Of a stretch of DNA of 64,000 nucleotides, positions 41,694 through 46,266 are shown piece by piece (the stretch's first letter is position 1; each line of letters begins with the position of its first letter). A model generated the notes under the pieces. That model was not told where the DNA came from. It did no database searches and was given only the letters and a program-made list of their open reading frames with translations. Position numbers and translations under genes: made by a program. This DNA comes from Beijerinckiaceae bacterium (GTDB taxonomy: Bacteria; Pseudomonadota; Alphaproteobacteria; Rhizobiales; Beijerinckiaceae): assembly GCA_019745195.1 (NCBI GenBank), contig JAIETL010000046.1, forward strand, positions 1-64,000, in the 5' to 3' direction.

Positions 41694-42383
41694 ATGGCGC
41701 GCGAGACACCAGCGCTCTTCCTCTCCCAGGTCGAGCGCTTCTATCCCCAGGCCGACGCCCCGCTCGAAATCCTGCGCAAGGCGGATTTCGCGCTCTGGCC
41801 GGGCGAACTCGTGGCGCTCGTCGCGCCGAGCGGCACCGGCAAGTCGACGCTGCTTCACGTCGCGGGCCTGCTGGAGAAGCCCGACGGCGGCGAGGTCTAT
41901 GTCGGCGGCATGGCCACCGCCAAGCTCGACGATTCCGGTCGCACCCGGCTGCGCCGTACCGAGATCGGCTTCGTCTACCAGTTCCACCATCTGCTGCCGG
42001 AGTTCACCGCGCTGGAGAACGTCGTGCTGCCGCAGCGCATCCGCGGTCTCGACAAGGGGCTGGCGGAGGAGCGGGCGGCCGAACTGCTGACGTTCCTGGG
42101 CCTGGGCGAACGGCTCGACCATCTGCCAGGCGAACTGTCGGGGGGCGAGCAGCAGCGCGTCGCCATCGGCCGGGCGATGGCCAACACGCCACGCCTGCTG
42201 CTGGCCGACGAGCCGACGGGCAATCTCGACCCGGTCACCTCGCTGCACGTCTTCTCGACGCTGGTGGCGCTCGCGCGGGCCTCGGGGCTGGCGGCGCTGA
42301 TCGCGACCCATAATCTCGATCTCGCCCGCCGCATGGACCGGCAGGTGACGATCCGCGACGGGCTGGTGGTGCCGCTGGATTGA
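41694..42383 (+). CDS. lolD: Lipoprotein-releasing ABC transporter ATPase LolD
   Basis: A 229-residue ATPase: Walker [11 protein letters not shown]-loop in [17 protein letters not shown] (the LolD-type FHHLLPEF), signature [14 protein letters not shown], Walker [13 protein letters not shown]. Powers extraction of outer-membrane lipoproteins from the inner membrane with the adjacent LolC/E. Confidence 0.95.
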
Positions 42384-42488
42384 GGCGGTGCGGCTCCTCG
42401 AATGGTTGTCGCGTTAACCTTCAGCCAACCTTGTTTACCGCCTGTTAACCGCCATCCATTTGTGCAGGATGGAACTGACGCACCGGTA

Positions 42489-42531
42489 TTGACGAGAACA
42501 AAACATGAATTAAAGTGAACATAGACAGAAC
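42489..42531 (+). promoter_or_regulatory. Promoter with LexA (SOS)-type boxes
   Basis: A -35 TTGACG (42489-42494) and a -10 TAAAGT (42511-42516) are separated by 16 bases. A perfect alphaproteobacterial SOS box GAAC-N7-GAAC (GAACATAGACAGAAC, 42517-42531) follows the -10 directly. A second, near-match (GAAC-N7-GAAT, 42496-42510) lies in the spacer. A bound LexA would block this promoter. The motifs are seen; regulation is inferred. Confidence 0.65.
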
Positions 42532-42545
42532 ATCAGGAGGCGACG

Positions 42546-42656
42546 ATGGTTGCGATGCGTAAGGTTGCGGCAGGTCTGGCGGAGCTGGCCTCGCTCGGGC
42601 TGTTCCTCGGCATGATCTGGCTCTGGGCGGCGTTGTTCTCGGCGGCGCAGCTCTGA
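42546..42656 (+). CDS. 36-residue single-pass membrane peptide, SOS-type promoter
   Basis: ATG 42546 is placed five bases after a perfect AGGAGG (42535-42540). The peptide has a short basic N-terminus (MVAMRKVAAGLAE) and one hydrophobic helix rich in Trp, Leu and Phe (SLGLFLGMIWLWAALFSA). It starts about 23 bases after the expected transcription start of the SOS-type promoter and ends 127 bases before dnaE. Strong ribosome binding site, promoter and composition together support a real gene. In layout it resembles SidA, the small SOS-induced inner-membrane division inhibitor of Caulobacter; sequence homology to SidA is not claimed. Confidence 0.65.
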   Translation: MVAMRKVAAGLAELASLGLFLGMIWLWAALFSAAQL

Positions 42657-42783
42657 CGCTTCGGTCCGAGCCATCCACAGCCCGCCTGCGACTGCGGCAT
42701 CTGGCTGCTGGACGCCGTGCGCGCGGGCACCCCAAATGATCGCGACGTGAAGCGAACGAGTCGCGCTGCGAGGCGAGGGGCGG

Positions 42784-45700
42784 ATGATGGGCCGGGACGA
42801 CAGCGAAAGGCGCATCCTGTCCGAGATCGGCTTCGTGCATCTGCATGTCCATTCGAGCTATTCGCTGCTCGAAGGCGCCATGACGATCCCGACCATCGCG
42901 AAGATGGCGGCCGCCGACGGGCAGCCGGCGCTCGCCCTGACCGACACCAACAACCTGTTCGGCGCGCTGGAATTTTCGGAGAAGCTGGCGGGTGCCGGCA
43001 TCCAGCCGATCGCCGGGGTGCAGCTCTCGGTCGATTTCGGGGACGAGGCCGAGGGCGGGCGCAAGGGACCGCTGAACCAGACTCCGCCGCATCTGGTGCT
43101 GCTGGCGATGAACGAAGCCGGCTACGGCAATCTGATGAAGCTGGTGACCGAGGCGTGTCTGGCGAGCGGCGGCTCGGGCCAGCCGCTCGCGACGGTCGAG
43201 CGGTTGGCCGCCCATAATGATGGGCTGATCGCACTGACCGGCGGCCATGGCGGGCCGGTCGATCTCGCCTTGCGCAACGGGCAGGCGGCGCAGGCGAAGG
43301 CGCGGCTTTCTACATTGGCAGACATCTTCGGCGACCGGCTTTATGTCGAGATCCAGCGTCATGGCGAGGATGGCGAGGGCGCCATCGAGGCGCAGCTCCT
43401 CAAGCTCGCTTACGATGCCGATCTCGCCATCGTCGCGACGAACGAGCCCTTCTTCGCCAAGCCGGCCGATTACGAGGCGCATGACGCGCTGCTGGCGGTC
43501 GCGGCCGGGCGGCTGGTCTCGGATGGAGAGCGCCGCCGGGTCACGCCGCAGCACCATTTCGCCAGCCGCGCCGAAATGAAGCGCCGTTTCGCCGACCTGC
43601 CCGAGGCGCTGGCCTCGACTGTCGAGATCGCGATGCGCTGCACCTGGCGCGTGGGCCTGCGCAAACCGATCCTGCCGCGCTTCGGCGGGGAGAATGGGCT
43701 CGACGAGGCGGTCGAACTGGAGCTGCAGGCGAAGGCCGGGCTCGCGGCGCGCCTCGCCAAGCACGGCCCGTCGCCGGGTTTCGACGTGGCGGCCTATGAG
43801 GCGCGGCTCGATTTCGAGCTCTCGGTCATCGCCCGGATGAAGTATCCCGGCTATTTCCTGATCGTCGCCGACTTCATCAAATGGGCCAAGGATCATGACA
43901 TCCCGGTCGGGCCGGGCCGCGGTTCGGGCGCGGGCTCGCTCGTCGCCTATGCGCTGACGATCACGGATGTCGATCCTTTGCGCTTCGGCCTGCTGTTCGA
44001 GCGTTTCCTCAACCCCGACCGCGTCTCGATGCCGGACTTCGACATCGATTTCTGCCAGAACCGGCGCGAAGAGGTGATCGATTACGTCCAGCAGCGCTAC
44101 GGCAAGGAGCGCGTCGCGCAGATCATCACCTTCGGCACCTTGCTGGCGCGCGGCGTTCTGCGCGATGTCGGGCGCGTGCTGGAGATGCCTTACGGCCAGG
44201 TCGACAAGCTGACCAAGCTCGTGCCGCAGAATCCGGCGAAGCCGATCTCGCTGGTCGACGCGATCAAGGGCGAGCCGAAACTGCAGCAGGCTTCGGAGGA
44301 AGAACCGATCGTCGCGCGACTTCTGGAAATCGGCCAGAAGCTCGAAGGGTTGCACCGCCACGCCTCGACCCATGCGGCCGGCGTCGTCATCGGCGACCGG
44401 CCGCTGGAAGAACTGGTCGCGCTCTCGGTTGATCCGCGCACCGGCATGCGCGTCACCCAGTTCAACATGAAATGGGTCGAGCAGGCCGGGCTGGTGAAGT
44501 TCGACTTCCTCGGCCTGAAGACGCTGACGACGCTGACGACAGCCGTCAAGCTGATCAAGCAGCGCGGCATCGACGTCGATCTGGCGAGCCTGCCCTTCGA
44601 CGACCCCAAGAGCTACGAGATGCTGGCGCGCGGCGAGGTGGTCGGCGTGTTCCAGGTGGAAAGCGCCGGCATGCGGCGCGCGCTGGTCGAGATGAAGGCC
44701 GACCGGATCGAGGATCTGATCGCGCTGGTCGCGCTCTACCGGCCGGGCCCGATGGACAATATCCCGAGCTATTGCCGCCGCAAGCTCGGGCAGGAAGCGC
44801 CGACCTATCTCCACCCGAAGATGGAACCGATCCTCGCCGAGACGCATGGCATCATCGTCTATCAGGAGCAGGTGATGCAGGTGGCGCAGGCGCTCTCGGG
44901 CTATTCGCTCGGCGAGGCGGATTTGCTGCGCCGCGCCATGGGCAAGAAGATCAAGGCCGAGATGGACGCCCAGCGCGACCGCTTCGTGAACGGCGCGGTC
45001 GAGGGCGGCATCAGGAAGGACGTCGCCTCGGAAATCTTCGACCTGCTGGCGAAATTCGCCGATTACGGCTTCAACAAAAGCCACGCGGCGGCCTATGCCG
45101 TCGTCGCCTTCCAGACCGCCTACCTCAAGGCGAATTTCCCTGTCGAGTTCATGGCGGCGTCGATGACGCTCGACATGGGCAACACCGACAAGCTCTCGGA
45201 ATTCCGCCGCGACGCCGAGCGCATGGGCATCAAGGTGTTGCCGCCTGCGATCAACCGCTCCGGCGTCGAGTTCGACGTCGCAGACGGCGCGATCCACTAC
45301 GCGCTGGCCGCGATCAAGGGTGTCGGTGGGGCGGCGGTGGCCTCCATCGTCGCGGCACGGCAGGCGGGCGGGCCGTTCAGGGACCTCGCCGATCTGGCGC
45401 GGCGGATCGACACCAGACTGGTCAACCGGCGCACCATCGAGGCGCTGATCGCGGCGGGCGCGCTCGATGCGCTGGAGCCTGAGCGGGCGCGCGCCATGGC
45501 GGCGATCGATGGCATGCTGGCGCTCTCGAACCGGACCCGCGAGGCCGCGCTCGGCGGCCAGTCCGAGCTGTTTGGCGGCGGCGGCGTGCAGGAGGCTTTT
45601 CGTATTCCCCCGGTCGAGCCCTGGTCGGCGGCCGAGCGTTTGCGCCGCGAGCACGAGGCGGTGGGCTTCTTCCTCTCGGGCCATCCGCTCGACGACTATG

Positions 45701-46266
45701 CACACGTCCTCAAGCGGCTGCGCGTGCAGCGCTTTTCCGAGTTCGCCCAGACTGTGCGCGCCAACGGCACCGGCGTCGCCAAGGTCGCGGTCTCGGTGAT
45801 CGACAAATCGGAGCGGCGGACCAAGTCCGGCAACAAGATGGGCATCGTCCAGCTCTCGGATTCGAGCGGGCAGTTCGAGGCGATCCTGTTCTCGGAGGGG
45901 CTGCAGCGCCATCGCGACCTGCTGGAGCCGGGCCGTGCGCTGGTCTTGCGGCTCTCGGCCGTGCTCGATGGCGAGGAGGTGCGCCCGCGCATCGAGGAAG
46001 TCGAGGTGCTCGACGATCTTGCCGCCCGTCAGAAGCAGGACCTCTTGGTCTATCTGCGCGACGACAAGGCGCTGGCCTCGATCGCCGAGCGGGTGCGCCC
46101 GCGCAGCGACGGCATCAGGGCCGAGGGCAAGATCGCGCTCGTCATGATCCTCGACGACGGCGCGCAGGAGGTCGAGATCGAACTGCCGGGGCGTTATCCG
46201 GTCAATCAGCAGATCGCCAACGCGGTGCGCGCCGCGCCCGGCGTTATCAGCGTGGAACTGCGCTGA
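42784..46266 (+). CDS. dnaE: DNA polymerase III alpha subunit
   Basis: This 1160-residue replicative polymerase has a PHP domain at the N-terminus (FVHLHVHSSYSLLEGAMTI), a palm with the catalytic acidic motif MPDFDIDFC, the PGRGSGAGSLVAYAL loop, and a fingers segment FNKSHAAAYAVVAFQTAYL. A helix-hairpin-helix region and an OB fold (about 960-1060) follow. Length is typical of DnaE1. Two adjacent ATG codons (42784, 42787) are both possible. Downstream of the SOS-type promoter and small peptide; whether it shares that transcript is unknown. Confidence 0.97.
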   Translation: MMGRDDSERRILSEIGFVHLHVHSSYSLLEGAMTIPTIAKMAAADGQPALALTDTNNLFGALEFSEKLAGAGIQPIAGVQLSVDFGDEAEGGRKGPLNQTPPHLVLLAMNEAGYGNLMKLVTEACLASGGSGQPLATVERLAAHNDGLIALTGGHGGPVDLALRNGQAAQAKARLSTLADIFGDRLYVEIQRHGEDGEGAIEAQLLKLAYDADLAIVATNEPFFAKPADYEAHDALLAVAAGRLVSDGERRRVTPQHHFASRAEMKRRFADLPEALASTVEIAMRCTWRVGLRKPILPRFGGENGLDEAVELELQAKAGLAARLAKHGPSPGFDVAAYEARLDFELSVIARMKYPGYFLIVADFIKWAKDHDIPVGPGRGSGAGSLVAYALTITDVDPLRFGLLFERFLNPDRVSMPDFDIDFCQNRREEVIDYVQQRYGKERVAQIITFGTLLARGVLRDVGRVLEMPYGQVDKLTKLVPQNPAKPISLVDAIKGEPKLQQASEEEPIVARLLEIGQKLEGLHRHASTHAAGVVIGDRPLEELVALSVDPRTGMRVTQFNMKWVEQAGLVKFDFLGLKTLTTLTTAVKLIKQRGIDVDLASLPFDDPKSYEMLARGEVVGVFQVESAGMRRALVEMKADRIEDLIALVALYRPGPMDNIPSYCRRKLGQEAPTYLHPKMEPILAETHGIIVYQEQVMQVAQALSGYSLGEADLLRRAMGKKIKAEMDAQRDRFVNGAVEGGIRKDVASEIFDLLAKFADYGFNKSHAAAYAVVAFQTAYLKANFPVEFMAASMTLDMGNTDKLSEFRRDAERMGIKVLPPAINRSGVEFDVADGAIHYALAAIKGVGGAAVASIVAARQAGGPFRDLADLARRIDTRLVNRRTIEALIAAGALDALEPERARAMAAIDGMLALSNRTREAALGGQSELFGGGGVQEAFRIPPVEPWSAAERLRREHEAVGFFLSGHPLDDYAHVLKRLRVQRFSEFAQTVRANGTGVAKVAVSVIDKSERRTKSGNKMGIVQLSDSSGQFEAILFSEGLQRHRDLLEPGRALVLRLSAVLDGEEVRPRIEEVEVLDDLAARQKQDLLVYLRDDKALASIAERVRPRSDGIRAEGKIALVMILDDGAQEVEIELPGRYPVNQQIANAVRAAPGVISVELR

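Follow-up and report, generated by a model that had tools for sequence, protein, structure and literature searches.

A LexA-type promoter and a candidate SidA-like membrane peptide at the dnaE locus of Bosea and other Alphaproteobacteria

SidA of Caulobacter crescentus is described as a 29-residue inner-membrane protein that interacts with FtsW (PMC4211646), and in models reported in 2026, which are not of high confidence, it was placed on TM7 of FtsW (PMC13396833). The SOS box of Caulobacter is given as GTTC-N7-GTTC, the complement of GAAC-N7-GAAC (PMC9578287). Among the matches listed by a literature search, no paper on SidA outside Caulobacter was found. A locus of the soil bacterium Bosea is compared here with this system. 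It lies in a 64-kb stretch of DNA, referred to as the window, in which the original prediction had read TTGACG and TAAAGT hexamers 16 nucleotides apart, a near-match SOS box in the spacer and a perfect one right after the -10, and then AGGAGG and the ATG of a 36-residue peptide. All of these elements were found again at the following positions, together with the two flanking genes.

41694..42383, + strand: lolD-like ABC ATPase gene, the usual upstream neighbour (best NCBIfam model TIGR02211, LolD)
42489..42494, + strand: -35 hexamer TTGACG, from the promoter scan; TTGAC is kept in 25/25 genus loci
42496..42510, + strand: LexA-type box 1, GAACAAAACATGAAT, GAAC-N7-GAAT with 1 of 8 positions mismatched, within the -35/-10 spacer
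42511..42516, + strand: -10 hexamer TAAAGT, 16-nt spacer from the -35; recovered under the scan rule in 17/25 genus loci
42517..42531, + strand: LexA-type box 2, GAACATAGACAGAAC, a perfect GAAC-N7-GAAC that abuts the -10
42535..42540, + strand: ribosome-binding site AGGAGG; the equivalent place is purine-rich in the genus loci displayed
42546..42656, + strand: 36-codon open reading frame with ATG at 42546, predicted SidA-like single-helix peptide MVAMRKVAAGLAELASLGLFLGMIWLWAALFSAAQL
42784..46266, + strand: dnaE (dnaE1), DNA polymerase III alpha, the conserved downstream neighbour, from Pfam and NCBIfam

Since box 1 fills the spacer and box 2 begins directly after the -10, the starts of the four half-sites lie 11, 10 and 11 bases apart. 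A promoter scan of positions 42300-42900 returned the peptide promoter as its sole site, with 0.1 expected, and no terminator-like site was found in the same interval. The product of dnaE scored 1450.9 bits against the replicative alpha model NF004226 (cut-off 1002), whereas its 630.9 bits against the error-prone model fell below that model's cut-off of 939. An imuA-imuB-dnaE2 mutasome cassette with DnaE2 as the neighbour was considered and ruled out by these NCBIfam scores, which make the downstream polymerase DnaE1. The lolD-like gene reached 233.6 bits against TIGR02211, under the cut-off of 307.75. A little past the peptide stop, at 42671-42680, stands CCATCCACAG, which contains a weakly DnaA-box-like TCCACA, two mismatches away from the DnaA-box consensus TTWTNCACA; the site was seen within 2 mismatches in 20/25 genus loci.

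The box by itself was rejected as evidence, because its count in the window is within chance: GAAC-N7-GAAC occurs three times against 1.49 expected, and 17 of 100 shuffles reach three. Genome-wide, 125 matches were counted versus 73 for the reversed motif. The significance of the promoter and peptide derives from conservation and not from box frequency. In the genus, 25/25 recA loci have GAAC-N7-GAAC in the 250 nt upstream of the gene (reversed-motif control, 1/25), as do 25/25 of the lexA loci examined (control, 0/25); a split lexA match in one genome (G008, L064/L065) and two recA loci (L334, L356) were excluded from these counts. Because the identical box precedes recA and lexA in Bosea, GAAC-N7-GAAC at the peptide promoter is very probably a LexA operator there. 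The earlier description of the promoter as LexA-type is thus supported at the level of sequence by the same direct repeat at both regulatory genes. Other AT-rich GAAC-N7-GAAC boxes in the window's own genome (G000) mark candidate SOS genes, at C14:80241-80282, C16:58470-58484, C45:32034-32048, C2:33256-33270 and C5:2165-2179.

The peptide is encoded in 26/26 Bosea genomes searched, namely all 25 of the first set and G326; one further Bosea genome, G041, lay outside this search. In the 25 aligned genus loci the frame is always exactly 36 codons long with an ATG start, a DnaE motif follows 162-242 nt past its stop in 25/25, and a LolD motif was found upstream, within the stretch taken, in 21/25. 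For the peptide gene, the 286 pairs with finite dN/dS have a median of 0.22, and all 300 of 300 pairs from the 25 loci have a pN smaller than their pS; judged by this pattern of substitution, the gene is under purifying selection in the genus. The 43-nt promoter array of -35, box 1, -10 and box 2 is free of indels across the 25 genomes, with a mean pairwise identity of 82% versus 44% for the 43 nt immediately upstream. Box 1 departs from the motif at no more than one of eight positions in 25/25 loci and is perfect in 12, and box 2 does so in 22/25 and is perfect in 18, so that at least one perfect box is present in 20/25 loci and none in 5/25. In G326, one position of box 1 is mismatched, whereas box 2 is present in degenerate form.

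Beyond the genus, a search with profile A2 over 337 genomes of the class gave convincing matches only at the window's own locus, in G060 and in G107. Sequence search being too weak at this length, a locus-based approach was used, in which the stretch upstream of dnaE was surveyed for perfect boxes within 600 nt, with the reversed motif and the spacings N5, N6, N8 and N9 as controls, and for hydrophobic frames of 22-60 residues after the box. Four of 227 loci (L177, L199, L424, L435) were excluded for a misplaced start of the dnaE frame, and 37/149 order, 225/315 class and 8/38 Caulobacteraceae genomes with dnaE were left outside the survey. A perfect box was found at 64/110 order loci (controls 3-8), and a box with a hydrophobic frame behind it at 58/110 (controls 0-3). 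The corresponding numbers were 18/83 (controls 0-4) and 15 (controls 0-1) for the other loci of the class, and 18/30 (controls 0-2) and 17 (controls 0-1) for Caulobacteraceae; the frames behind the boxes encode 24-47 residues. A search of relatives for the small frame and its SOS box upstream of dnaE had been suggested with the original prediction; on these counts the arrangement is conserved in the genus and at more than half of the order loci surveyed, and the prediction was not refuted.

A profile of 86 distinct peptides added 19 members beyond the box-bearing set, in 9/52 order, 0/68 other class and 10/13 Caulobacteraceae loci, and a box with no more than one mismatch lies within 600 nt in 18 of these 19, a count that has no chance control. 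The peptide is thus counted at 67/110 order, 15/83 other class and 27/30 Caulobacteraceae loci, totals in which the box-bearing loci are also the training set of the profile, and no such peptide was found in the upstream stretch scanned at 43/110, 68/83 and 3/30 loci, respectively. Among the antisense frames of the dnaE-upstream stretches, one matched the 86-peptide profile. It belongs to the dnaE locus L405 of an order genome (G120), where the cassette is inverted relative to dnaE, with two GTTC-N7-GTTC boxes and an opposite-strand frame ending in VRDVAALGALTAFATMLAVVVGGA, and it looks like a true family member in inverted orientation. In one group of the order (L081, L082, L086, L087, L089, L092, L094-L096), box 1 reads GAAC-N7-GAAC and box 2, about 18 nt on, GTTC-N7-GTTC, so that the orientation of the operators varies by lineage while the doubling is retained. 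At seven Caulobacteraceae loci (L281, L288, L293-L296, L303), two SOS-like boxes lie 17-18 nt apart, each one mismatch off perfect.

The Kyte-Doolittle mean over 19 residues peaks in the window peptide at 1.89, for residues 14-32, and the peptide is predicted to be an inner-membrane protein with one helix. The family shares a core [RK][DE]xxAL-x-[SA]-hydrophobic-xx-F...W; among 56 aligned peptides the D/E is present in 51, the A three residues on in 44, the F in 50 and the W in 40. Of the 86 peptides, 74 contain [DE]xx[AS][ALFSMVI], whereas 200 shuffles gave a mean of 21 and a maximum of 33. Lysine and arginine are commoner before than after the core in 43/56 peptides, which suggests that the N-terminus is inside. 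Searches of the submitted peptides against Pfam, PHROGs, plasmid and phage collections gave no useful match; one peptide had two sub-cut-off Pfam matches, and a Caulobacter 29-mer had one weak PHROGs match (E 0.0098). When members outside Caulobacteraceae were searched singly, 8 against NCBIfam and Pfam and 20 more against NCBIfam (some shared), no model was reached at cut-off.

The copy in Caulobacteraceae could be linked to the published gene. Family f104 was identified as Caulobacteraceae by its CtrA: 39 of its 40 members match the C. crescentus CtrA query, with 86-100% identity in 36 and 84% (a fragment, G720) or 80% (G723, G735) in the others, against identities of at most 85% in other families with a match. 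At 14/17 box-bearing loci of this family the frame upstream of dnaE encodes 29 residues, and two copies searched singly scored 70.8 and 66.6 bits to the NCBIfam SidA model NF033228, against a cut-off of 35. In G736, where CtrA and the query are 100% identical, the 29-mer (L300) lies between dnaE and a divergent gene for an inosine-uridine nucleoside hydrolase. This context agrees with the published tags, in which dnaE is CC1926 (PMC1839093), sidA is CCNA_02004 (PMC10769358) and CCNA_02005 is a nucleoside hydrolase (PMC3667746), where the CC and CCNA series would be joined through recN (CC1983 = CCNA_02062). By its 29 residues, its NF033228 scores and the context in G736, the Caulobacteraceae gene upstream of dnaE is identified as SidA. 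The likeness to SidA had been put forward earlier as an analogy; with a gene scoring as SidA at the same dnaE site, it is stronger than proposed.

The connection between this SidA and the Bosea peptide is less direct. Composition could mimic homology in single-helix peptides, which are short and hydrophobic, and the shuffle controls used here cover composition and leave helix patterning uncovered. With a profile built from 56 Hyphomicrobiales peptides only, Caulobacteraceae peptides scored a median of 24.0 bits versus 0.7 for shuffles, and 15/16 beat all 300 shuffles. Without its Bosea row, the Hyphomicrobiales profile placed 11/11 of the Bosea peptides submitted (of 21 distinct) above all shuffles. 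In the reverse direction, a Caulobacteraceae-only profile recovered 25/56 Hyphomicrobiales peptides above 99% of shuffles, and none of the 11 Bosea peptides beat that level. The window peptide gave no match to NF033228 at E<=0.1 or at E<=10 and thus lies below the curated 35-bit SidA cut-off. In set A3 (56 peptides, 12 from Caulobacteraceae), 13 matched NF033228 at E<=10, one of which, the Hyphomicrobiales peptide of L258, scored 13.2 bits (E 0.067), below the cut-off. Because NF033228 does not match the window peptide and the Caulobacteraceae-only profile misses Bosea, the link goes through intermediates and synteny, and the Bosea peptide is not placed in the curated SidA equivalog. It is best read as a divergent, positionally orthologous SidA-type peptide, set apart from that equivalog.

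A mechanism can be proposed in which the window peptide is probably a divergent orthologue of Caulobacter SidA, namely a LexA-repressed, SOS-induced inhibitor of division in the inner membrane that would most likely act on FtsW. During normal growth, LexA on the two operators bracketing the -10 would keep the promoter shut; after DNA damage, RecA would trigger LexA self-cleavage, the promoter would open and the 36-residue peptide would be made. In the inner membrane the peptide would then form one helix. Its N-terminal end, which carries R/K, would most likely lie inside, and the conserved face [D/E]xxAL...F...W would bind a membrane protein of the divisome, FtsW being the most likely one. Bound to FtsW, it would hold septum synthesis, at the level of the late divisome, until repair is complete. 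For Bosea we infer LexA binding, damage induction, membrane insertion, FtsW as the bound target and division arrest. An effect of the peptide on the replisome, which had been suggested alongside a halt of division, found no support, with L405 bearing the cassette inverted relative to dnaE.

Other explanations of the locus were weighed against this SidA-type reading. That the box is LexA-like by chance, or the reading frame spurious, agrees with its frequency within the window, which is no rarer than expected, yet boxes conserved in genus, order and class against spacing and reversed-motif controls make this hardly credible, and it can be regarded as already refuted at sequence level. The frame could instead act mainly as a leader, in which the SOS promoter serves dnaE and translation of the short frame tunes dnaE after damage. 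In its favour, the peptide gene and dnaE point the same way, 42300-42900 contains no terminator-like site and, under a simple consensus rule, no promoter-like site separates the two genes in 25/25 genus loci. However, the selection acts on the amino-acid sequence, as the dN/dS indicates, the helix motif persists class-wide, one order genome carries the cassette with its boxes inverted relative to dnaE (L405), and the homologue in Caulobacter has been published as an inhibitor of division (PMC4211646), so that a role chiefly as a leader appears unlikely. Read-through from the peptide promoter into dnaE is itself possible, on account of the missing promoter-like and terminator-like sites, and the inverted copy shows that such a cassette need not feed dnaE.

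A further explanation is that the peptide would depolarise the membrane, with metabolism slowed or persistence favoured, without being directed at the divisome. TisB is a small, hydrophobic, single-helix peptide of the SOS response, like DinQ. The Bosea peptide has these properties, being small, hydrophobic, single-helix by prediction and apparently SOS-controlled, as is DinQ of E. coli (PMC3567139); but locus and profile tie it to SidA, which was modelled in contact with FtsW TM7, in models not of high confidence (PMC13396833), and a TisB- or DinQ-like action is accordingly improbable. A wider proposal, tentative and on balance doubtful, extends the SidA-type reading: SidA would be just the Caulobacter branch of an SOS checkpoint peptide ancestral to alphaproteobacteria and retained at dnaE, and the LexA promoter would also read through into dnaE. 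If that were true, one damage signal would stop division and raise synthesis of the replicative polymerase.

The SidA-type reading would provide a positionally fixed candidate for the brake on division during the SOS response across much of Hyphomicrobiales and in some other members of the class, and with such a candidate fixed at dnaE, the question of what halts division there after damage becomes directly testable. Furthermore, a comparison of about 100 divergent sequences from a single locus reveals the helix positions that have been retained and that may be important for binding a target. Since members outside Caulobacteraceae reached no NCBIfam or Pfam model at cut-off, annotation may overlook them.

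Among described systems, YneA, ChiZ and SosA of other phyla are larger than the Bosea peptide. They resemble it by description, as damage-induced small membrane proteins that act late in division (PMC13396833), and a list of unrelated genes includes YneA and ChiZ alongside SidA (PMC4211646). DidA of C. crescentus, also likened by description, is a damage-induced single-helix division inhibitor as well, but it has 71 residues, is SOS-independent, being activated by DriD and not controlled by LexA, and interacts with FtsN (PMC4211646). In comparison with SidA of C. crescentus, the Bosea peptide has 36 instead of 29 residues, a conserved WxWAA segment, a longer C-terminus and no match to NF033228, whereas the two have in common the position directly upstream of dnaE, the GAAC-N7-GAAC operators, the size class and the predicted single helix with its [RK][DE]xxAL...F core.
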